64,000 nucleotides of DNA from Diplosphaera chodatii (lineage: Eukaryota > Chlorophyta > Trebouxiophyceae > Prasiolales > Stichococcaceae). The translations under genes were made by a program, and so were the position numbers. Shown here one piece after another: positions 15,701 through 63,012 of this stretch (position 1 is its first letter; each line of letters starts with the position of its first letter). The stretch covers positions 1,364,001 through 1,428,000 of the forward strand of contig JAALGY010000030.1 in NCBI GenBank assembly GCA_032358165.1, given 5' to 3'. A model generated the notes under the pieces. It did not search any database and was not told where the DNA came from. It worked only from the letters and a program-made list of their open reading frames with translations.

Positions 15701-15891
15701 AGGTGGTGTACGAGGGCGGCCAGCTGGCGGTCGTGGCGGGCGCCGGCCGCTTTGTGCCGATGCCGCTGCACCCGCCTATCTTTGAGGGCGTAGCTCAGCA
15801 CAATGCACAGCGGTTGGGTGAGGAGTTTCCATATGGCCAGACGCCTGTGCGGCGGCGGGGTGACGCAGCACCCGCTAGGGACGAACTGTGA
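12711..15891 (+). CDS. PYD2: Dihydropyrimidinase with signal peptide and RDEL end
   Basis: Second enzyme of reductive pyrimidine breakdown: hydrolyses dihydrouracil or dihydrothymine to the N-carbamoyl-beta-amino acid. Exons: 12711-12803, 12910-12999, 13097-13218, 13354-13516, 13675-13755, 13905-13967, 14096-14203, 14343-14435, 14559-14638, 14760-14933, 15067-15137, 15267-15475, 15676-15891 (1563 nt, 520 aa). It is an amidohydrolase barrel: metal-binding PGGIDPHTHLE, the lysine to be carboxylated in FKFFMAYKGVF, VHAEHGE, YVVHVM, SIVATDHAVFNSTQK, KIPNGVNGIEERLH. The start MYGSASQAICVLLLSSALAC looks like a cleavable signal peptide, and the protein ends APARDEL, an ER-retrieval type tetrapeptide. 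One intron carries an AT-rich tract near 15008-15050. Allantoinase is excluded by the dihydropyrimidinase-specific motifs. Confidence 0.95.
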
Positions 15892-16075: not shown

Positions 16076-17160
16076 TCAAGGCTTGGCATACATCGATCGC
16101 AAAATGGCCCTGAGAACAAGTGATGCACCGACCAGGTATGCAAGCGCCGTCGCACTGTTGACAACTGCAGCATGGAGCAAGTTCCCAGCAGGGGTGCCCC
16201 ACGCCACACGGACTGCATCCCCAGGATCATGCGCCAGCCACACCTGCTGCCAGCCGGCAATTGCTGAGCTGTCTCCGCCGCACCTGACCCGCACCTGGGG
16301 CCACGGCAGCACCGTGGTGACCACAGGAGACTGCCAGCCGGCGAGCCACCACGACAGGTTTCTGCCGGTGTCGCTCCACGCCACAGGCTGTGGGTACCGA
16401 GCGTGCAGTGGTATGGCGCGCTGTTCGATTATGCTGCGCCTGTGACGCTGTGGCGGCAGGGCGGGCGCAGGGCCTGCACGGCCGCCGCCGGCGTCCCCTG
16501 CCCGCTGCACACCGGCCTGTCCCTGCGCTGCGGCTGCAGTCCATCGCAGCAGCAGCGCTGTGGACATGCACTCGACCTCGGTTCGCTCCGCATCCGCCAC
16601 GCCAAACAGCTGGAAGGACATCGCTGCAGGGCTGCCCTGCCACGACGCCACCAGGTTCCTGAGCTGGTCCACGTCAGCATACACAGCAGCGGGCAGCGGC
16701 TGCACAAGCGCGACGTGGCATGTGTCTGCCGCCCCGGCTGCAGCGCAGCTGCCCAGCTGCCGTGGCAGCCGCAGCACTGTGGCGATGCGCTGCCAGGCGC
16801 CAGCGATGCTGCTGCCGCCCCCGCAGGGCCGCAGCTCCAGCTCGTATGACAGCTCGCGGTGGAAGCCGGTGCCCTGCAGGCTGCGGGTCAGCCGGCCAGA
16901 CCATCCTGCGCCGCCGCTGGTGGGCATTGTGCTCAGTGCCTACGCACATGCGGGAAGACAGTCGGCTGCGTGACTGTAAGTGTGCCAGGCCTGGCAACCG
17001 AAAACATGCGCTCGCAAACAGCGCTAGCTGAACTGACCTGCGCCACAACATCTGGCTGTGTCGAGGCAGGTGTAGCAGCAGCGGCCTGGACTGCTGTGAA
17101 TGCCAGAGATATCAAGCAGGCGGCCACCAGCTGCCTTGCTGTCAAGTTGCCCGCCAGCAT
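16076..17160 (-). CDS. PIGX: PIG-X, accessory subunit of GPI mannosyltransferase I
   Basis: ER membrane protein that stabilises PIG-M, the first mannosyltransferase of GPI-anchor synthesis. Two exons: 17160-17038 and 16939-16076 (987 nt, 328 aa). A signal peptide opens it (MLAGNLTARQLVAACLISLA). Family landmarks: HRELSYELELRP, HVALVQPLPAAVYADVDQL (PIG-X: LP..VYVD..EL), IPLHARYPQP (the conserved PLH.RY), then VTTVLPWPQVRVRC. A single membrane segment lies near the C-terminus (HAAVVNSATALAYLVGASLV), ending SMYAKP. Between the middle and PLHARY motifs is an Ala/Gly/Arg-rich stretch (about 16400-16560) that may be a disordered insert or an unspliced intron. Its ATG lies only 32 nt after the TMEM230 stop on the same strand. 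A TGTAA element (15950-15954, minus) lies about 120 nt past the stop. Confidence 0.85.
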
Positions 17161-17192
17161 GCTGCACTTCCTTCGTCGACTGTGCCCAAGCC

Positions 17193-17820
17193 TCAGTACG
17201 GAATCTGACTGTAGGAGTACCCTTCGCAGCCGCAGAATGACAGGAAGGCGATCGATGTGACGTATGCGCCTGCACCAGGTGGCGGTGTCGATGCCAGCTG
17301 TTGGGCCTGGGCATGCATCCACGTCACATTCGTGCTGACAGTGAGGGTGACTGTACCTGGTATGAACATCAGCGAACCCAAGATTGTGAAGCCCCAGCCC
17401 TGCAACAGGAAGCCGAGGAAGTGACCTGATACAGGGTGCTGCAAATGCGCATATGGAATACGCCCACAACAGCCCAAACACAGGCCTCACCGCTCCATCC
17501 TTTGAGACCACATGTCCCAGCAGGTGCAGAAAGCCGTAGGACAGGACGCACAGACCGCCGATCAGCAGCACCAGGCCTTGTACAATCGCCTGTGTTGGCG
17601 CTTTTGGTGGCGCTGGGGCCTCCTCCTGCAACTTTGCGGCCTGCACCAGATGCTTGGATGTAGTCCGTGATACGAAATAGCCGGCGCTGATCTGAGCTGC
17701 GCATACTCAGCTGGGCATGCCGGCACTGAACGAGATCATGCTGTTGCACAGCGCGCATCAGAATGTGCAAACCTGATTAGCGTCCTTGGTTGGCACTGGC
17801 CGGTATCGAAGGTTAGACAT
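17193..17820 (-). CDS. TMEM230: TMEM230-like (DUF872) two-pass membrane protein
   Basis: Small vesicle or endomembrane protein family. Exons: 17820-17773, 17640-17491, 17438-17357, 17269-17193 (357 nt, 118 aa, the usual family size). The N-terminus is hydrophilic. Two membrane segments follow: QAIVQGLVLLIGGLCVLSYG and the region around GWGFTILGSLMFIPG. The C-terminal signature GCEGYSYSQIPY matches the family's GY.GYSYDDIP, and FIPGAY matches FLPGFY. The animal homologue is linked to vesicle trafficking; the algal role is not known. The gene is unusual in lying directly upstream of PIG-X in the same orientation with a 32-nt gap, leaving no room for a normal 3' UTR plus promoter. Confidence 0.88.
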
Positions 17821-18184
17821 CGAGACTCGATGAGGTGCAGCGCCTGAACAGCAGCATACGAGCAACTGCAAGGTGTACACAGCGTGCGCCTGCGTAGGCT
17901 TGCTTATGCACACCCTCAGCCTGCTGATGACCTGTACAGTAACACACCCCACAACCCTGCTAGTCTGTACCACGGGGCGTCGGAGATGATGCTGTAGTAT
18001 GATACTTCGCTGCACGAGAAGCTGGATGGGTCAATTGGGAAGTGCCTGGACTTGGCCATTCCTAGAGTCGCAGGTGGTCCAGACTTCCGCAGCTTCATAA
18101 ACTTGCAGTTCATATGATGATGTTAGCAGTAGTTGACAACCGTCAGCCATCGGGTGAAGTTTGCAGTCCTTGCTGTGTAGCCGG

Positions 18185-18542
18185 CTAAAAGTCGACCAAA
18201 AGGTCGGCATCTTGGTCCGGCGGCGGTGGCAGGGGCGGCGGGTCCGGTATATCAGCGCTGCTGTACATTCGGCGCATGGTCGGACGCTGCTTCTTGCCAG
18301 CGTGCCCACCGCCACGTCTGCCACCACTGCTGCGACCTGGACTCCTGCCGCCAGCACTGCTTCTGCTGCCTGCAGCATTGCCGTCATTGCCCCCAACACC
18401 CCCACGCCCTGTGCTGCTGTCATACTGGTATGTACGGCCGCCACCGGTACCGCCGCTTCTGCCTCTTGCATGCATGTGCGATGGCGCCCTGTGCAGCTGC
18501 GCAGACTGACCATGCGCTCTGTGGCGCTGCATGACAGCCTCC

Positions 18543-18578
<36 letters not shown>

Positions 18579-21098
18579 AAGTTGGCGGTGCGGCCACGGG
18601 CTGCGCCCCCATTGCGCCGAGGTGCTGCCTGCCCGAGATCGCACAGCGCAGGTGCTGTGCCGGCAGCCACGCCAAACTCGAAGGCCGCATGGGTCTCATG
18701 CAATAGCACTGCGCAGCAGATAAACTCTCACATCACCTTCCTCAATTCGTGTAGCAGATGATGCAGGACTCCTGCTTCCAGTCGGCAGGAGCTGGGACCT
18801 GTCTTGATGCCTGGGTTGCTCAAGGCACCGGAGCCGCCGCCACCGCCGATACTCTGCTCCACCTCTGCCGCTGGCACACGCCGCACCCGCCGCACCGTCA
18901 CTGTCTCCTCCTGCTGCCAGTCTGGGCCGCGTGGCGCTGTGCCATTCCTGCGCTTCACTGGTGTTGTCGTGCGCCGCACCATTGTCTCCTGCAGGCTGTA
19001 CTCAAGCTGTCACGGTTCCCTTAGCTGACGTGAGCCATCTGAACCACTCTTTCTCTTCCTGGCTGCAGATTTACCTGTTGCGTCAGCCTCTCAGCAAGAT
19101 AGAAGAAAGCATCAACAGCCCAGCTGACGTACCTCGACGAGGCAGCCCATGCGCGGGTGCTGCTGGGCAGGCTGCTGCGCGGGAGCAGCCTGCTGCACGT
19201 GGCGCGCGTCAGGGGAGGGTGGCTCCTCGACTGTGTAGTGCTGCGTCTGCTGCATGCATGCACTGGCAGGTTGTGGTGTAGTGTGCGCTTGCATGCTATG
19301 CATGTGTACAAGCAGTGCAGTCTTCCGTCGAATCTGAATAAGCCCATCAGCACAGGAAGGTCGCTGATACCTTGCGCTGCGTCTTGCCGTCAAAGACACC
19401 CAGTTGCTTGCGGCTCTGCCCACCGCTGCCACTGCTTCCGTCCGGCGACAACTCCAGGTCGTAGATCTCAGCCCACTCCGGTAACTGTTGCAGGCCTTCT
19501 TGTTGCTGCCGCTGCTGCTGCTGCTGCTGCTGCTGCTGTGGCGGCGGTGGCATCTGTGGGGGTGAGGACAGCGCTGCAACAGTGCGCTTCAGTTGCGCCA
19601 GCTCCCTGGCCTGTGAACCATCCCCCATGCACCTCATGACTACCAACGAGATGAACACACGAGCGGCCTCCTCTGCAGCACAGTGTGAGCAGATAGACAA
19701 GGGGGCCATGTCCTAATTGGCGTTCGCATGCGGCCAGACCCGGACTGTACTGCAGCTTGCACCTTAGCAGTAATTCGCTGCTGCGCTGCTTGATTGGCCG
19801 CTGTTAGGCACGCCAGCTGCTGCGCCTCTGAGCTGCCCCGCTTTGCAGTACTCCCTACACTACTTTCAAAACCTGCAGTCCACATTGACACCTGCTGTGT
19901 CCGGTGGACATTGACCTGCTGCACAGGCTCTTTCCAATTGATCAGCACACTGCCACCAGCACCGTGACGCAACACCCTGTCTCCTCCAATATGACAGTCC
20001 CAATCATGTTTACTGGGTGGTGGCAACCGTGAGGCGGCCATCAAGTCGTCAAGCTCAGCTTTCAGATCCTGCTGCCGGAACCTCTCGCTGTCGATGCTGC
20101 ATGTGGTGCCTTCATTGTGCAGAGCAGCCGGACGGTGACCATGAAGTGAGGACCTGCTGCTGCAACAGTCTGACGTGCACTGCATGCGATTGCCGCCAGC
20201 TCAGATCAGCTGGCGCAGTAGCAGCGAGTGGGATATTACCTTCCAGTGCAGTTCGCAGCTGCCGAATGGTTGCTTTGCTTTGCGCCAACCTATGCTGCAA
20301 GGCCTGCGCATGCACATATCCGCGGTAACGGTAGCTGTTTGCGCGCGAGTGTGCATGCATGCATATCCCATGCAACGACAGCCAGCTGTGTTTCGCACCT
20401 GCTGCGCAGCAACCATGCAACTGTGTGCAGCTTCAGCTTCCTCACGCTCTTGGGTGCAGCGGGTCACATCTGCCTGAATGGCAGCTTTGCGCTGTTCCAG
20501 AGCATCAAGGCTGTACTTCGCCCGGAAGTCTGCAGTCTCGGAAATGAAAGCCTGCGCGTCCAGCTGCATCTGTTCCCTCGCCTTGGCAACCTCAGTCTGC
20601 GCTTCGGTCAGTCGCATGCAGAATCAGTGCCTGTACACTACGTTCGTGCACTGAAGGTCAATCAGCAGGCAGTTTGCCTGTGTACTGTACATGCTGAACG
20701 CTTCAGGGACCTGCAGCTGCTGCATTGTGGCGGTGTGAGCAGCCTCCTGCTTCGTCCTCGCTTCTGACACAAGCTGGTGCTTTTCCACCTGCGCCTCCAG
20801 GCGACAGACACTGGCGGCCAGGTGCCTCTGCTCGTTCGCAAGCTTGTCACCCTCTACTGTCAGCTGCTGCACCTGAGCCTGCATACAAGGTTGCATCACG
20901 ATGAAACTGTCAGGGGTCCACCTTTGGCCTGCATGGCAACACTTGCAACAACTGCAGGCCCTGCAAGCATGGGTATAACAAGAGAGGTCATGCCTGCAAT
21001 GCAGTGCGGTCCCGTATTGCATGGCTGATGGCTTCATCAACACCATCAAGCTCCCGCTTGAAAGCATCAATCTTGCTTGACAGGTCCAGCCAGGACAT
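18185..21098 (-). CDS. Coiled-coil protein with poly-Q tracts, unrecognised family
   Basis: I do not recognise this protein. Nine exons keep one frame: 21098-20994, 20878-20711, 20596-20399, 20303-20240, 20169-19763, 19712-19371, 19249-19133, 18988-18799, 18708-18185 (2115 nt, 704 aa). It starts MSWLDLSSKIDAFKRELDGV. Exons 1-4 are almost continuous coiled coil (about residues 10-180), e.g. KLANEQRHLAASVCRLEAQV. The middle is polar. Exon 6 carries a poly-Pro/poly-Gln run followed by PEWAEIYDLELSPDG. Exon 8 has VKRRNGTAPRGPDWQQEE. Exon 9 has a second Gln run, then an Arg/Gly/Ser-rich tail with many RGG/GGR and GRS units, and ends DPPPLPPPPDQDADLLVDF. The first intron seems to use a GC donor (GCATGA at 20993). 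Layout suggests a scaffold or RNA-associated protein, but that is inference. Confidence 0.7.
18548..18577 (-). repeat. CAG repeat coding poly-Gln (about 10 Gln)
   Basis: CTG triplets on the plus strand read as CAG on the coding strand in the last exon of the coiled-coil gene. The tract is nearly pure, so replication slippage could make it length-variable. Confidence 0.85.
19504..19542 (-). repeat. CAG repeat coding poly-Gln after poly-Pro
   Basis: Second CAG-type tract of the same gene, in exon 6. It encodes a Gln run broken by one Arg and preceded by several Pro, a typical low-complexity segment. Confidence 0.8.
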
Positions 21099-23752: not shown

Positions 23753-26040
23753 TTAGGCGATGGTGCAGGTGCGGCCTGCCTGCTGCACCAGCCCATTTGC
23801 TGCATCCTCAGAGCAACCCTCGTCGGCCTTCAGGAGGAACTTGGCATGATGTTCGATGTGGTCGCCCACGAATGTCTGCGGTCATGGTGTGCTACGTCAG
23901 CCACGCTTACAGGCACTTGTGGCACAACTACGACTACCCTAGCAGGGCTGCCGTGTGTACCAGACATGGCAGCTCAGCACTTCGCCAAAACATGCAAGCG
24001 GTTCTCACTGCTCACCGCCACGAAGAAAGCCAGTGTATGGTCGTAGCCGTCCTGCCATCGCAGCTTCACATCCAGGTTCGGGTTTTTCGCTGCTGTGTTT
24101 GCAAACCGGTCTGGTGCCAGATCCTTGAGCCAGGCGTCACTGCTCAGATCGAGCAAGCAGTGCAAGGTGAGTGACCACAGCAGCGGACACTAGGGCTTGC
24201 ACATCGCATGTTTTGCTGCTGACGTGACTAGCTAGCAGGATGGCCCTGCTGCTTACCTGGTCCCCTGGTCGATCAGGATGCTCTTCTTGTGGCCGATGTA
24301 CTTGGCGGCACAGTCGGTTGCATCGTACTGTCGCCAGCGCTCAAAGTCGTTGCCCAGGTACTCCTTGAAGGCTGCGAACACCATGCTTGAGTCGTGCAGA
24401 CGAATCTCCACTTCCAGAAACTGGCAAAGGTGAGTGCTGCTCTCAAGGAGCGGCACCTTCTCATGGTGGTTTGATGACTACCTTTCTGTGCAAGGCTGGA
24501 CGTGGAAGGATTAGCGATGGGTGCAAAGGCAGACGCAGATTTGTAGTCTTCTGGGTTCTTGAGGGCTATCATCAGTGCCCCTGTAGACCAGACCCCACTC
24601 TGTCGCCATGCAGGCATACAAGCACACTTGGAAGCGTTGCAAGCAGTTATACTTGTCCAGCAGTTTGCTATAGGCAAGCAAGCTCACCATTGCCACCCAT
24701 GCTGTGCCCAAAGATGCTGGCATTGCTTGTGTCCAGATCCTTGAAGGACGGGTCATTGGCCAGTAGCTCCGGCAACTCCTTGCTGGTGTAAGTGTACATC
24801 TGGTAGCGCTTCCAGGGCTCTGCAGCAGCAGCAGCAGGGGGGTCCACATGCACAGATATTGCACAAACTGCACCTATTGCGGCGGCACATCATTGGGTAC
24901 CAGTGACGACCTCTGTGGTGCTTGTATGTGTATGTTGTGCATGCTGTGGATGCAAGCGTTGCTTGTATGCCGTGTAGCTCCTGCATGCTGCTTGCCCATG
25001 GCCGGCGACACCGCACCAGTCACAGCGTCCACGTAGAAGCCTGCGCCGACGCCCAGCGCCCACTCCTCCTCACCCGCGATGCCCAGCTGCGGTGGCGAGG
25101 TGTCTGGCACCACCAGCGCGATGCCCAGCTCTGACGCCTTGCGCTGTGCGTCTGCCTGCAACAAGCAGGTGTGCAGCCGGCAGGCACGCAGCATCAGTCT
25201 GGATGCCACAGCGGCAGCATGGCTGCATATGGTCGCATGTGTGCAAGCGCTGGTTCTGCATGGCAGCAGGGAGAAGCGGACGTGCCTTCTCTGTGAAGTT
25301 CTCGTCTGCAGCACACAAGTAAGTGTATGGGCAGGTGACCGTTTATACCATGGTCAAGCTGCAAGCAAAGGTGCAAGGTGTGCTTAATTCAGATGTGCAT
25401 ACATGGGCACCGTGTGCCTGCTTGCGAACCTGTGCATGTCAGGCAGCTGAGGAAGTACAGCACCTGATGGGCACAGTTACCATGGTCAAGGCCGGACATG
25501 CCACGATAGGACCAGTAGGTCAGTTTTGCAGGTAATGCAAGCGCTGCACCACGATGAGCATGTGCACCGGGACTTTGTGCTCCTCAGCAGCTGGCGGCCA
25601 GTAGACATAGAACTGCAGAGTCAAGCATCAGCAGCAGTAGTGACCAGGCGCACACCAACATGAACCGCACAACGATCATGCAGCTGATCTTTGGCATGTG
25701 TATGTCGCAGTGCGAAATCATGCCCAGCTCGCCTTCATGGGGCAGTTCAACGATGTGGAATCATGTTGGTACCGCTTATTCCAGCCGCCGAAGTGCTATA
25801 CATACAGATCACATAGAGTATTGATGATGCAGAGATCACATGTACGCCCGCGCTCTTCAATACTGTGACGTGCAGGTGCCGTAGGCTGTGTCATCAGCAG
25901 CACGGTGGATATCGCAAGACCATTTTGACCCATTTTGCATGGGTACTCAAGAATGTGCGGAGACATCGAGGTGGTGTTGTGCTGCACGGTTGACCGTGCA
26001 GTCGTCACACCTTGTGGCTTTCGACCTCCTCGAGCCCCAT
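23753..26040 (-). CDS. SFGH: S-formylglutathione hydrolase, copy A
   Basis: Hydrolyses S-formylglutathione to formate and glutathione in formaldehyde detoxification. Exons: 26040-26011, 25795-25733, 25612-25568, 25463-25430, 25305-25286, 25155-25017, 24819-24688, 24580-24482, 24371-24257, 24139-24016, 23875-23753 (924 nt, 307 aa). Alpha/beta-hydrolase of the esterase D family: [43 protein letters not shown], nucleophile Ser in IFGHSMGG, Asp in ILIDQG, His in GYDHTLAFF. Two introns start with GC rather than GT (25732 GCGAGC, 25285 GCACGT). Compared with copy B it has two extra introns, an altered segment before the His and a C-terminal extension of about 22 residues ([17 protein letters not shown]...). 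All three catalytic residues are retained. Confidence 0.93.
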
Positions 26041-43572: not shown

Positions 43573-46500
43573 TCAGGTCACCATGACCTTCTGGATGACC
43601 TGTGCTGCCCAGTCGGCGGTGTCGCTGAGGCCGCCATCCTGGCTGCTCTGGCACTCGCGCACAAACTGCACGAGCCCTGGCTTCTGCTGGAACAGCGCAC
43701 CAACGCCTGCATGGCGCAGCACACGCACATCAGAACCACAGCATTCCAACACACGTAAACATGCACCAGGTTGCATTCACACACTCACATCACGTGCAAT
43801 GTGAAACTTTTGTGACCTACTGCAGGCGTGTCGTGAGCATTGCAGTGGGTGGACCTGCCGACAGAGGTGCGCACCTGTGAGGGATGAGGCCAGGTCGCCC
43901 AGCAGCGCTATGGCGATTTTGTTCACAGCGGTGTCCTGGTTTGCCTTGTCATTGAACACGTACTCCACGAACTCGATTGCGCCCTGCGGCATGCCATGAA
44001 TGGCAATCTCAAGGCAAGCAGGGGCGCGCTCCGGATAAAAACGCAGCCGAATGCAGGCGAGAAGTGGCAGGTGACTTTGGTGGAAGTAGGGTGGATGACT
44101 GACAGTGCCAAGCACTTGCAGCAGGCTGAGCACGTAAGACCATGCCAGCATGCTTGAAAGGAGGAAAGCGCTACCGTGGCAGCGTGGACAAGGTGCTGGT
44201 TGGCCTTCTCGCGGGACATGCCATTCAGGATGCCGGTGTAGGCCTCCAGAATGCCGTGCCGCAGCAGGTTGTTGTAGTCGAAGAAGTCCTCATCCGCCTG
44301 CTGCTGCTGCTGCACACTCAGCGCCTGCACACCGACAGGGGCTACCGGTTGGCACTCTGATTCACACCAGAGGTGGCATGTAGTGACACACATGCACAGC
44401 CGTAGGATCCAGTGCAGGCACTGCATGCAATTGGTTTCTGCCGGGGGCAGTGTGGCCCAAGCAGCACCTGGGCGGAGCCGAGCATGGTGATCACGTGCTG
44501 CAGGTACGCCTCAAAGTTGTCGCCGATCGCGAGCGCGATGTCGCCAAAGGCCGACAGGATCTGAGGCTTGATGTTGCGGTGCACCGCGTCGCTCTGCACA
44601 TGCAAAGTGCTGACAGGTCACGCACACTTCTGGGTCCCCGACTGCAGCAGCCAGCATGCACGCATCGTGCAGCCGACATGCAGACAGCTGACATGCACTG
44701 CGTCGCCCTGCGAGGGGAAATGTGGGGTGTGAGGTTGCCGGCCCCGTCCCACCCACAGCAGCACGGCTCACCTGCAGGTTGGCCAGCAGCACTGCCATGA
44801 CCCGGTCGCAGTAGGGCGCCAGGGCCTCCTCAATCCCCCGGCAGATGTCGCCCAGCACGCCCACGCTGACCTGGCACACCTGCCAGTCCTGCACACGCCG
44901 CGACCACCAGTGCCCTCAGGGGAGGGTGTGCTGAGCAGTTGCGCATGCACCACGACGGCAAAGCGCAGAGGCAGCGGGGCGTCAACCTGACAGCATCATA
45001 TCCGCAAGGAAGGGGGAGGGAGGGGCAACCTGGTGGTTGGTCAGGCCCTGTAGCAGCACCGGGAAGAAGGAGTCCATGTACTTCACAAACTGCTTCCCGG
45101 TGGCGTAGGTGAAGGCGCCCACCGCCAGCAGCGCCTCCTCGTGCACCGTCGCGCTGCGGCATGCAAACACACGCAGCAGCACCTGCAGCGCCAGTGTGCG
45201 CATCTCAGGCCCCTGGTGCCCTGGTCGCGCTTGCATACGCTGCAAAGGGCGGCCTGGCTGGACAAGTGCAGTGTGTTATGCACGGAGGCACTCAATGCGC
45301 TCAACATCAGCTGTGCATTTTCCGGGCCAATGATCTGCCAGGCAGGGTGTACCTCCATGATGGCATCGCCATACTGGAGCACGCCCGGCTTCGTGGCGTC
45401 TGTCTCACTGAGTTTCTGGACAATGACCTGCAGCACTCCGCACAGCAGGCCCTGCATGCACACACAGACACATTCCCGTCCATGTGTTTGTGGCAAAGTC
45501 AAGCACAGGCAATACGGAGCCAGCGCAGCCAGTATTGCAGCCAGGGATTTGCGTACATGGTGGCGGCCCAAGAGTTCAATGCAAACTCCGAACATGTGCA
45601 CGTTGTCAGAGCACACCTGGATCTCCGACTGGCGCTCCAGGGCCTCCGAGGTGGCGGCCTGGGCCTGCAGCGTCTCGTTCAGCTTGTTGATCATGAGCGG
45701 GATGAGCTGGCCGACCATCGGCAGCGTGTCGGGGCTCGCGCACCGCACCACCTCGTTGATCGCCTCGAACGCCTGCGCCTGCAGCCGCGTGCCCTCCCCC
45801 TGGCGCGCGGCCTGTGCGTGCCCACCAGCAGAGTCGTCATTGGCGCTCGCATACGAGGCAGGCTGCCTTGGCGCACTGTGTCGCTTGAAACCCAGTGCTT
45901 GCGGCCGTCGTGATCAGTGTCTGGACAGTATGTGGGGCATCACACCGTCTCCAGCAGGGCCTGGATGATGTCCTTGAAGTAGGGCGACAGCGGCGAGGCC
46001 GTGTCGCTGTCCTTGAAGCCCGCTGCCAGCTGGCTCAGCGCATAGCACACCTGCGCCAGGTACCGAACCCCGTCAGGTGTGCAACAACTGCACCGCGAAC
46101 ACCGATGACATGCCGAGATTCCGGGTGCGGCCGGCAGCAAGCTCAGGAGGGGCGTGCCCACCTTCTCGGCGATGTGGTGCTCATCCTTGATGGAGATGAG
46201 TAGCGTCTCCACTATCGGCGGAAGGTTGGCGGGCGTGATGACCGGCGGGTTTGCGCCGCTGCCGTGCACAAACTCGAAGATGCGGCCTGCAATTTGTGCG
46301 CTTCTCAGTGAGTGCAAGCAGGTTGCCCAGGTGCCTGGCTCCAGGTGCAGGCCAAGCAGAGCTTGCACTGACTGCCATGCAACAGGATGCATCGAATGAA
46401 GCCTCACCAATGGCCCACGCTGTCGTGTGCCGGACCTGCACCTTCGGATCCTTCATGGCCTGCATCAGATGCAGATCACCCCATTGCGTTCCAGCCGTCC

Positions 46501-49489: not shown

Positions 49490-52400
49490 ATGGACTCATA
49501 TAGCCTGCGCGCTGAATGCTGGGGTCACGAGGAGGATGTGAGAAGATGATTCACATGACAAAGTTGTTGAAGCTTGTTACAGCTTGATATGTGTTCGAGG
49601 CTTCATGCATGTGGCGCGGTCGCCAATCTGACATCATAAGTACGATGCTGCAGGTGAGGGCCTTGTGTCCCGTTGAGTCGGGCTTCGCAACAGCATCGCG
49701 TGATCGCACCGCGAAGATTTGGGTGGAAAGCAGCGCACACACGTTCGACAACACCCTGACGCTGGTGAGACATCCACGAGAGTCGAGCTTCAGCCGCTGG
49801 TGAAGCAAATGGAGAAGCCAGCCTGACCATGCTCATGCATGCAGGCGGGACACGAAGACTACGTGGTTGCGATAGCCTGCATCCCTCCACAGACCTCTGC
49901 AGCGTACCCAGAGGGCGCTTTTGTGACAGGTCACCTGCTGCAAGCACTCACTGCTCCCATTCTGCCTCAGCTGCAGAGTGTGGTCAGATGCATCGATGAT
50001 CGGCTCTGCTACTGCAGGCTCTAGAGACAAATCAGTCATAGTCTGGCACGCTGGAACAGCACAGCCAATCCGGAAACTGCAGGGCCACAAATGGCAGGTC
50101 ACTGCAGTGGCTGCTATGCCTGACGGCGGCATCGCCTCAGCATCGCTGGACGGGTGGGTGCACAGCAGACATATCGCAGGCATGTGTCACAGATGCAGCC
50201 TCGCAAGTAGCCCCGCAGCCAGCAATGGGTCCTTCTGCACACAGCCAGATGATGGTGCTGCTAATAATGGTTGCAGGACGATTCGCATATGGGATGCTGA
50301 TGGCAATGCGAAGGTGCTGGAGGGTCACGAAGGGCCTGTCCAGTGCCTGCTGGTACTACCTGACGGAAGCCTTTTGTCCGGTTCGAATGACAAGACTATC
50401 AAGCTGTGGCAGGGCACACGGTGTGTCAAGACGCTTACTGGCCACAATGACACTGTCAGGTATGTTCCTCCAGTGCTGAAGCGTGCACTCTGGCGTCATC
50501 AGGATGATGTAATGTTCACCAGTTGCCATTGGTGTTGCCGTTTGGTATCCACTCTGGCACCTGTGATCGATTGTCATTGCAGGGGCCTGAGCCTCATACC
50601 AGGTCTGGGCGTTGCATCAGCATCACATGATGGCACGCTGCGGCTGTGGACCAACGGAGGCGATGCCATTGCCGTCCTTGAAGGCCACACAGCACTGGTG
50701 TACAGGTGAGCCTGGGCATTGGTGAGGATGGTGCACGGGCTGAGTATATCCGGTGCTGCGGCAATTATACGCTGTGGTGCCGCTGTGCAGTGCTGCAGCA
50801 ACGGCAGACGGACTGATTGCATCAGCTAGCGAGGACAACACAGCCCGCCTGTGGCGTGCCGATGGCACCTGCCTACAGGTGCGAAGTCATCGCTGTCGCA
50901 GTGGTCACGGTATGACCTGCACCTACTGCAGGATGCTTACTAGTGTGGCAGAGCATGTCGGTAAACGTGTTCGTGCAAGGTATGTCTCATCAAGATCATT
51001 TTGTGCAGACGCTGGAGCATCCCGCATGCGTATGGGATGTGGCATTCCTGCCCAATGGCGATCTGGTCACAGCCTGCGCCGACTTTGCTGCTCGCGTCTG
51101 GACACCATCGCCCGAGCGTGTGGCATCTGCAGAGACCATTCAGGTGTGGCCTGCGGTTGTGATAAGTGCAACTGTGCACCTTGGGCCGAGGTGACCGTGC
51201 ACAGCTCATGATTGACAGGATCATGACACGCGCTGATCAGCTTCCAAGACGTCGTGCTTGCGCCTGCAGAGCTTCCAGGCGGCGCTGGATGCCCGCAATG
51301 CAGCCAAGGCGGGCGGCGGTGCGGGCGGCGCACTGCCGGAGGGCCTGACGCTGGAGGACCCCATGGTGCTCACGCAGCCGGGCACCCGCGATGGCCAGAC
51401 CAAGGTCATCCGCGAGGATGGCAGCGGCATGGCGTACAGCTGGAGCGCGGCCAGGTTGGCTGGGGATGGTCATGTTGCATGGGATCCACGGTTGAAACAG
51501 GAACCGACATGTCCCTCGAAGCCACCTGAAAGTGATTGGTTTCAGCGACCTCGATGCCGACCTCGCACTGGCAGGCGAGAATGGGAAAAGCTGGGCGAGG
51601 TCGTTGCTGGTCCTGATGCGGAGGATACGATGGCGGTTGGTGGCAAGCGTTTGCATGGTCGCACCTGGGTGAGCCTACTCGGAAGCTGGCCTGACGCTGG
51701 CAGTTGTGCCAGGTTGACGGCTGATTGTGGTCTCTAGACCGGCGCCGGAGCACCGTTAGTCCGATCCGGTCAGCTGACGTTGAGGGTCCTGCAGTGTGCC
51801 ACAGGCCGAGTGTGATTGATGCAGGACTTTGTGTTTGATGTGGACATTGAGGACGGCGCTCCCACCAAGAAGCTGGCGGTGGACAGGGGCGAAAACCCTT
51901 ATGACGCCGCCGACCGCTTCCTGCAGCAGGAGGGCCTGCCCACCACGTACAGGTGCTCCCAGACCCATGCTCATGGTCTGACGTGCCTTCCTATGATGCA
52001 GTGATTGCATACCCATTGGGTATGTCAATGAGCACATGGCCACCATGTGCAACTGCATGCAATGAGCGTCTGGATGCCGTCTACGCACAGGGAACAGATC
52101 GCCAACTTCATTGTCACGAATTCGCATGGTGGCGTCACATGGCCGGACGTGCCAATGAATGTGGTGGGCTGAAGTGTGCTGTCACAACAACTACTGCCAT
52201 CATGTGCCTGAACCTGCTATGTAGACGTTGCACCATGTCACCGCAACCCTGCAGCCTGCAACTGTCACAAAGTGCTGTCATGCATGCACAGGACCCATTC
52301 ACGGGGGGTGGTGCCTATGTGCCTGGCGGCGGCGCAAGCTCCCGTGGCCCCAGCAGCGCTGCAGCATCACAGCAGGTCACCGGTGGCGGTGCAGACCCCT

Positions 52401-61530: not shown

Positions 61531-63012
61531 ATGGCGGGGTGTGCGAACTTCAGGCCTGGTGGCAGCCTGCTGCATACACAAGGAGAAGCTAGCTACTCAT
61601 ATACATCCTGCAATACGTTGAGGCGATGTGGGTCGCTGCCACACTGTCGGGATGCCTGCTCGCTCCGACACAGACTGGGCCCACGGAGCACAGTCTGCGA
61701 ATATGGCAGGCAGTCAGAGCCAAGGTGAGTGCACAAACCTCAACGAGACCAAGAGACAGTGCAGGCAGGCTGTGCTGGGTCTATGCATGTGCTCCTTGCG
61801 GCAATGCCACCAGCTGTGCCGCTGTTGTGGCGTCATGCCGTGCCTGGCTGCGTGCAGGCCGACGGCAACGAGGCCGTGGGAGGGTGCAGGATCGTACGAC
61901 TACCCGCCGCCGCCCAACACGGCCCGACCGCCGCCCGGTGGGGGAGGCGGCCCGCCGCCAGGGATGCCGAATGGTGATGGCGGACTGAACGGCTTCACCA
62001 AAGCGCTCATAGCAGGTGACCGCTCAGTGACCTCACTGCGTGAGATCTTCGTGGCCACTTGTCTGTCAGGACTCAAGGGAGACAACACTCTCCAAGCTTT
62101 ACACCACATCCGTTGCAGGTGCCTTCGTCATGGGCATGGGCGCCGGCGTGTGGTTCAACTCGGAAGCGTCCTTCCGCCCCAACAACGTCGCCAGCACAGA
62201 GATGATCGACCGCAAAACGCCCAACTCGGAGGTCTGCATGGCCAATGGCTACAGCTCCATGGTGTTCGACCAGCGGATCTTCGTGTCGTTCAACCCGTGC
62301 GTCCCTCCACTTGGTCACAGATGCTCCCATGATTGCTACCGCTTCATGCTGCTGCTCGAGTCGACGATGCTGCTTCTTCTGCGTGTCCTGTACCATACTT
62401 GCAGTTCTTCTGTGTGGCTTTTTACGATCGTAAGTGGGTATGAGACGGACATGCGACCCGCTGCCCCGTCCTGCCCAGGTTCAACGTGTACGTTGCGCAG
62501 CCAGAGGTGAAGCCAGGCTGTGTGTTGCGGCGAAGCAACGTACGGGAGCTTGAGTCACGGAAGCTGGTCGACTCCAAAGAGGTGGCGCCGGTCGCCAACA
62601 CAGCAGCTCGATCCATGCCACCATCCATCTGCATGTCCGATCCCTTCAGTCAAAGCCAACCATTGCAGCAGCTTTCAGCAAGGTCACTGCTGCTGCACGC
62701 TCCTCATGCAGGTGGAGGCGTGCAAGCGCAACATGAACACGTTTGCATTTGTGGGCGACCTTGAGAAGAGTCCCGAGGTGGGTTGCTGCGCAGGCGACAA
62801 GGATGTTATTTGCTGTACCTTCATCTGCACGTGTTTGCTGGCATGCTAGATGCTCATGGTGGACGTTTCTGTTGCAGGTGTCATGCGTGTACCACTCAGA
62901 GGCAGCGGAGAATCAGTTTCTGCAAAATCCGCGGAAGAGCGTGCTGGGTGATGGGTACCAAGCCCGCACACCGCAGGCACTCAGTGCCCCCGGCCTGGAT
63001 GCCCCGCAATGA
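61531..63012 (+). CDS. Conserved cyanobacterial/plastid protein, DUF3172-like
   Basis: Resembles a cyanobacterial protein family of unknown function kept in plastids of algae and plants (DUF3172, from memory). Exons: 61531-61724, 61858-62015, 62119-62296, 62479-62581, 62712-62777, 62878-63012 (834 nt, 277 aa). The first 60-70 residues are Arg/Ser/Cys-rich without a fold, likely a transit peptide. A Pro/Gly linker follows (YDYPPPPNTARPPPGGGGG), then LNGFTKALIAGAFVMGMGAG, a probable membrane helix. The conserved part is NVASTEMIDRKTPNSEVCM, MVFDQRIFVSFNPFNVYVAQ, EVKPGCVLRRSNVRELE, KRNMNTFAFVGDLEKSPEVS and CVYHSEAAENQFL. Three conserved Cys lie in this part. Function is not known. Confidence 0.75.

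Follow-up and report, generated by a model that had tools for sequence, protein, structure and literature searches.

Background

Nuclear bicistronic genes have reportedly been described in green algae by Gallaher et al. (2021). According to excerpts of PMC11291117, the bicistrons of Auxenochlorella have median sizes of 291 nt for ORF 1 and 1185 nt for ORF 2 with a median spacer of 40 nt, colinear monocistronic genes of the same alga lie 2518 nt apart, and the median spacer of Chlamydomonas bicistrons is 183 nt. In the work of Duenas et al. on Chlamydomonas and Auxenochlorella, as excerpted from PMC11291117 and PMC11892635, ORF 2 is translated by leaky scanning, which is associated with weak ORF-1 start contexts and with few AUGs before ORF 2; the median ratios of observed to expected ATG given there are 0.43-0.49 upstream of ORF 2 in bicistrons, compared with 0.94-1.20 in monocistronic genes (PMC11291117).

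The pair of genes considered here, TMEM230 and PIG-X, lies in a 64,000-nt stretch of the Diplosphaera chodatii genome that was analyzed as a whole and is referred to as the window (G000:C24:1364001-1428000). Like the green-algal bicistrons, the pair consists of two ORFs on the same strand, a short ORF 1 followed by a longer ORF 2, with a gap of tens of nucleotides and with signs of conservation in relatives, and its sizes of 318 and 987 nt with a 32-nt gap fit the Auxenochlorella medians. It differs from them in that the weak start context of ORF 1 is not conserved and the depletion of AUGs before ORF 2 is mild. The initial annotation had proposed that both genes may be expressed from one dicistronic nuclear mRNA. 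We find such an mRNA, of the green-algal type, likely, and the proposal is supported by the tight gap in a second genomic copy, by signs of linkage in five of eight PIG-X relatives and by one cDNA-like contig. The accompanying remark that co-expression would suit two endomembrane proteins carries little weight.

The names TMEM230 and PIG-X are absent from the main text of PMC11291117 and PMC11892635, and neither these names nor PBN1 appear among the literature matches listed on algal bicistrons and on PIG-X/PBN1; an earlier entry in published supplementary lists or in Gallaher et al. (2021) is possible. We regard the pair as a new candidate for a known, still unusual class of green-algal bicistronic genes.

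Results and discussion

Gene models and spacing

The window TMEM230 matches the TMEM_230_134 family (PF05915) with an E-value of 1.7e-11 and 44.7 bits (cut-off 26.8), and the window PIG-X matches the PIG-X/PBN1 family (PF08320) with an E-value of 1.1e-12 and 48.8 bits (cut-off 23). Each of the two ORFs has its own start and stop, and they correspond to a 105-aa model for TMEM230 and to about 328 aa for PIG-X. The exon borders shown in Table 1 were refined by alignment with the second genomic copy of the locus (L002). The initial annotation had placed the TMEM230 TGA at 17195-17193 and the PIG-X ATG at 17160 on the minus strand, with 32 nt between them, and these coordinates proved to be exact. 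It had also described TMEM230 as ending in its family signature, and indeed the PF05915 match runs to the last residue and the stop is also kept in L002. The public protein P0009 gives a gapless alignment over the whole 105-aa model, with 72% identity. Our first hand-spliced TMEM230, with exon 2 beginning at ATCAGCGCC and exon 3 at CACCCTG, was rejected; these stretches contain frame-breaking indels relative to the second copy and were therefore taken as intronic, with which P0009 later agreed. A 36-nt coding-like segment at 17144-17179 was disregarded, having an indel inside.

The PIG-X 5' end had been described as a signal peptide spliced in frame to the conserved body. The start is backed by P0002 and P0003, two of the eight relatives, which share the same first residue, and P0007 also opens with a leader near the start residue of the window protein; P0001, P0004, P0005, P0006 and P0008 begin at PIG-X exon 2 and are uninformative on the start. 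As a signal peptide, the hydrophobic leader is best called putative. Matches above the cut-off to PF05007, which we take to be the family of PIG-M, the partner of PIG-X, are present in the same genome.

Table 1. Features of the TMEM230-PIG-X locus, in window positions
Feature	Positions	Strand	Remarks
Stop of same-strand upstream gene	18185..18187	-	364 nt ahead of TMEM230 ATG
uORF, 14 aa, ATG at -37	17813..17857	-	runs over the TMEM230 start codon; second copy has the same ATG and stop
TMEM230 exon 1 (ATG 17820)	17773..17820	-	kept in L002 1501-1548; P0009 aligned from residue 1
TMEM230 exon 2	17491..17640	-	acceptor from frame conservation with L002 and P0009
Out-of-frame 12-codon mini-ORF inside spliced TMEM230	17369..17498 (includes intron 17490-17400)	-	kept in second copy
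TMEM230 exon 3	17357..17399	-	acceptor before GGCTGGGGC in frame for both copies, P0009 and P0011
TMEM230 exon 4, stop TGA 17195-17193	17193..17269	-	stop kept in L002; end of PF05915 match
Inter-ORF spacer, 32 nt (25 nt in second copy)	17161..17192	-	no ATG, no TGTAA
PIG-X exon 1, start codon and hydrophobic leader	17038..17160	-	leader kept in L002; start of P0002 and P0003
PIG-X exon 2, PIG-X/PBN1 domain, stop TGA 16078-16076	16076..16939	-	PF08320; stop kept in L002
TGTAA	15950..15954	-	only one between TMEM230 stop and 15892; absent from second copy
Stop of convergent dihydropyrimidinase-like gene	15889..15891	+	

A shared promoter would fall in 18184-17821. Since the convergent gene has its stop at 15891, the end of a shared 3' UTR would probably lie in 16075-15892. 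The poly(A) signal of green algae is TGTAA; with one site in the window copy and zero in the second copy, we dropped it as evidence for the poly(A) position.

The initial annotation had further put the other same-strand neighbors at least 260 nt apart. A rough check was made with the conserved coding segments between the window and C21, the contig of the second copy (n=177), 49 of which have a stop within 25 codons in both copies; 22 of these, together with the stop at 18185, were inspected and the other 27 were dropped as probable intron read-through. Apart from TMEM230-PIG-X, in seven same-strand pairs whose stop was judged terminal, the distance to the next conserved coding segment is 267, 364, 375, 482, 741, 825 and 1370 nt (the 364-nt distance runs to the TMEM230 ATG). 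A conserved stop at 45940-45942 on the minus strand, with 125 nt to the next same-strand coding segment, could be an intron donor or another short gap. Four shorter distances (93 nt at 24253, 73 nt at 50707, 115 nt at 61726 and 109 nt at 19347) were judged intronic by eye and set aside.

The second genomic copy

The locus is repeated at C21:1376111-1377860 with 79% identity, and the repetition extends over most of the window: 59,199 of its 64,000 bases align colinearly with C21 (G000:C21:1328001-1428000), blocks of more than 1 kb having 76-82% identity. The genome thus seems to contain either two chromosome sets that have diverged or an old duplication, as would be given by a hybrid, diploid or duplicated assembly. 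The CDC26-TTM3 locus is likewise double (C46 and C49).

Between the two copies, dS is 0.378 and dN/dS 0.153 for TMEM230, and the corresponding values for PIG-X are 0.365 and 0.326, which indicates that both ORFs are under purifying selection. The spacer is 25 nt long in the second copy. The PIG-X ATG of the window is ACG there, with another ATG in frame 9 nt (three codons) upstream, so the close spacing and the leader have outlived a turnover of the start codon. The two ORFs also differ in their relative frame: with respect to TMEM230, PIG-X is in frame 2 in the window and in frame 1 in the second copy. A short gap kept across two copies that are only moderately diverged is modest evidence for a bicistron.

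Searches of the 85.6 Mb genome gave two matches to the PIG-X family, both at these two loci, and nine to the TMEM230 protein query, eight of them at the two loci and the ninth on C18 with an E-value of 0.7; such single-locus results may miss strongly diverged copies of either gene. The Pfam TMEM230 model gave zero matches in the genome and zero in the controls too, probably because the exons are short.

Probable linkage in relatives and an apparent spliced cDNA

The joined-protein search, in which the 7990 candidates with the most shared words were scored, identified eight PIG-X relatives, and two TMEM230 protein searches gave 5 and 72 matches. A TMEM230 and a PIG-X match were called as being on the same contig when their longest contigs had equal size and source; this call compares contig descriptions and not the contig DNA itself. 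Five of the eight PIG-X relatives have a TMEM230 match of this kind: P0001 with P0010 and P0013 (6122, jgi), P0002 with P0011 (21473, lgn), P0007 with P0009 (4983, lgn), P0006 with P0014 (10952, lgn) and P0008 with P0015 (218247, ena). The matching sizes and sources indicate that TMEM230 and PIG-X are linked in these five relatives, whose PIG-X identity to the window protein goes from 93% down to 37%; P0008 and P0015, on a 218-kb contig, represent linkage and not adjacency. The remaining three, P0003, P0004 and P0005 (contigs 23705, 36728 and 5738), had no such TMEM230 match in either TMEM230 search. P0010, P0014 and P0015 score below the Pfam TMEM230 cut-off, being too short or broken by introns, and P0011 is just under it; these four were assigned to TMEM230 by the two protein searches. 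A scan of prokaryote contigs and another of viral contigs gave no PIG-X relative. The tight order is kept in the second copy; in the relatives, the indication for five of eight is one of linkage rather than of strand, order or spacing.

The 4983 contig deserves separate consideration. P0009 is a complete 105-aa TMEM230 whose alignment has no gap at any of the three intron sites, and the PIG-X protein P0007 continues through the PIG-X intron site; both score above the Pfam cut-offs, and each is represented by one sequence on two contigs, the longest being of 4983 nt. Their close relatives on the 10952 contig, P0014 (94% identical to P0009 over exon 2) and P0006 (75% identical to P0007), show intron read-through or a start at the acceptor at three of the four sites, namely both edges of TMEM230 exon 2 and the PIG-X site; TMEM230 intron 3 is not seen in P0014. 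Intron read-through is likewise seen in P0002, P0003, P0010 and P0011, and an acceptor marks the start of P0004 and P0005. Because P0002, P0011 and P0014, which carry the same lgn label, show their introns as read-through, the 4983 contig, judged from its size and splice state, is best read as spliced cDNA with both ORFs. It is far longer than two ORFs need, and an intron-poor genome or a read-through transcript are possible alternatives.

Known bicistrons in the same genome

As positive controls, the genome was searched for four bicistrons already described: OST4-FAM32A, CDC26-TTM3 and those of REX1B and SDHAF3. OST4-FAM32A, which was studied experimentally in Auxenochlorella (PMC11291117, in excerpt) and whose genes are unrelated to TMEM230 and PIG-X, is present with an 18-nt gap (L023, G000:C9:1623470-1626817, at 1260-1960). 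Its OST4 coding sequence contains two internal ATGs, so internal AUGs alone do not exclude a bicistron. A single FAM32A match was found in the genome, where other loci occur twice. On each of C46 (L036) and C49 (L037), CDC26 is followed after 115 nt by a CYTH protein that we take to be TTM3; the spacer contains no ATG and keeps its 115 nt in both copies despite divergence of its internal sequence. The CDC26-TTM3 pair is known from land plants and Chlamydomonas (PMC11291117, in excerpt), and its spacer here is longer than that of TMEM230-PIG-X. Two further CYTH matches (L024 and L025) were rejected as TTM3 since by eye they resemble a kinase-CYTH protein instead. The green-lineage bicistrons present here give general support for a green alga as host. 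The REX1B and SDHAF3 families had zero matches both in the genome and in the controls and are uninformative.

Translation of PIG-X

On a dicistronic mRNA, one promoter upstream of 17820 would drive a shared transcript, three introns would be spliced from TMEM230 and one from PIG-X, and polyadenylation would follow PIG-X, probably in 16075-15892. By leaky scanning, some ribosomes would pass over the TMEM230 AUG and initiate at that of PIG-X, and a short out-of-frame ORF inside TMEM230 would perhaps help via reinitiation. We infer the single mRNA, its ends and this route from genes, spacing and an adjacency in both copies that are read directly from the DNA.

The bases at -3 are T for TMEM230 and A for PIG-X in the window, the direction expected by leaky scanning, and A for TMEM230 and C for PIG-X in the second copy, the reverse. 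Three AUGs, one of them in strong context, lie inside the spliced TMEM230 of both copies. Over ORF 1 and the spacer, the 3 ATGs observed compare with about 4.6 expected in the window and 4.4 in the second copy by our own base-composition estimate, which leaves out the 5' UTR and gives an observed to expected ratio of about 0.65 for the window.

Two small ORFs (Table 1) are kept in both copies, and the -3 start contexts are not. The 12-codon mini-ORF opens with the AUG at +190, which is in strong context (-3 A, +4 G), and closes 121 nt upstream of the PIG-X AUG, the distance in the second copy being 114 nt. It is possible that it acts as a stepping stone for reinitiation at PIG-X; its conservation may merely reflect the coding constraint on TMEM230. 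In both copies the uORF at -37 terminates shortly after the TMEM230 AUG; it is relevant only if the 5' UTR extends to it. Leaky scanning with some reinitiation is the route that we prefer for PIG-X, unproven as it is. A relay in which the -37 uORF would ferry ribosomes over the TMEM230 AUG and the strong-context mini-ORF would enable reinitiation at PIG-X 114-121 nt on is a speculative variant that we regard as rather doubtful.

Alternative explanations

Two overlapping monocistronic transcripts, with a PIG-X promoter inside TMEM230 and a TMEM230 poly(A) site inside PIG-X, would be compatible with the DNA, and internal promoters have been predicted for many Auxenochlorella isoforms (excerpts of PMC12636532). 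The nearest non-coding stretch upstream of PIG-X in which such a promoter could be looked for, TMEM230 intron 3, is poorly conserved between the copies, with two indels, and in both copies the stretch from the TMEM230 stop to that of PIG-X is free of TGTAA. Together with the presence of both spliced ORFs on the cDNA-like 4983 contig, these observations make overlapping transcripts improbable. The size of the same contig, in excess of what is needed, would suit the view that transcripts are mostly separate or TMEM230-only with occasional read-through, the spanning cDNA being noise and little PIG-X being made; read-through transcripts are known in other eukaryotes, for example Arabidopsis (PMC9768141, in excerpt). 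We consider this even less probable, because PIG-X is under purifying selection between the copies and was found at no other locus, and because a gap of 25-32 nt leaves little room for separate UTRs.

A single fusion protein, produced across the gap by read-through of the stop codon, a frameshift or alternative splicing, would find some support in the window, where the open frame of PIG-X continues upstream through TMEM230 exon 2 (ORF 16933-17706). The relative frame of the two genes differs between the copies, and in the relatives the two proteins P0009 and P0007 are distinct, so that a fusion seems hardly credible. We give equally little weight to a processed operon like those of nematodes, in which the transcript would be cut and PIG-X given a spliced leader. 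A CAG does stand 1 nt before the PIG-X ATG in the window and immediately before the ATG of the second copy; the AG is present, but the bases that precede it are purine-rich and lack a pyrimidine tract in both copies. To our knowledge no spliced leader has been described in green algae.

Implications

With TMEM230-PIG-X on a dicistronic mRNA, the list of green-algal bicistrons would gain a candidate whose signs of linkage in relatives extend to a PIG-X identity of 37%. At this locus an automatic annotation may merge the two ORFs or lose one of them. Together with the window copy, the diverged second copy, in which the start codon has moved and the start contexts are different, would provide a natural pair for distinguishing leaky scanning from reinitiation. 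If the dicistronic reading is true, the expression of a GPI-anchor subunit would depend on how leaky initiation is at an unrelated gene for a vesicle protein.
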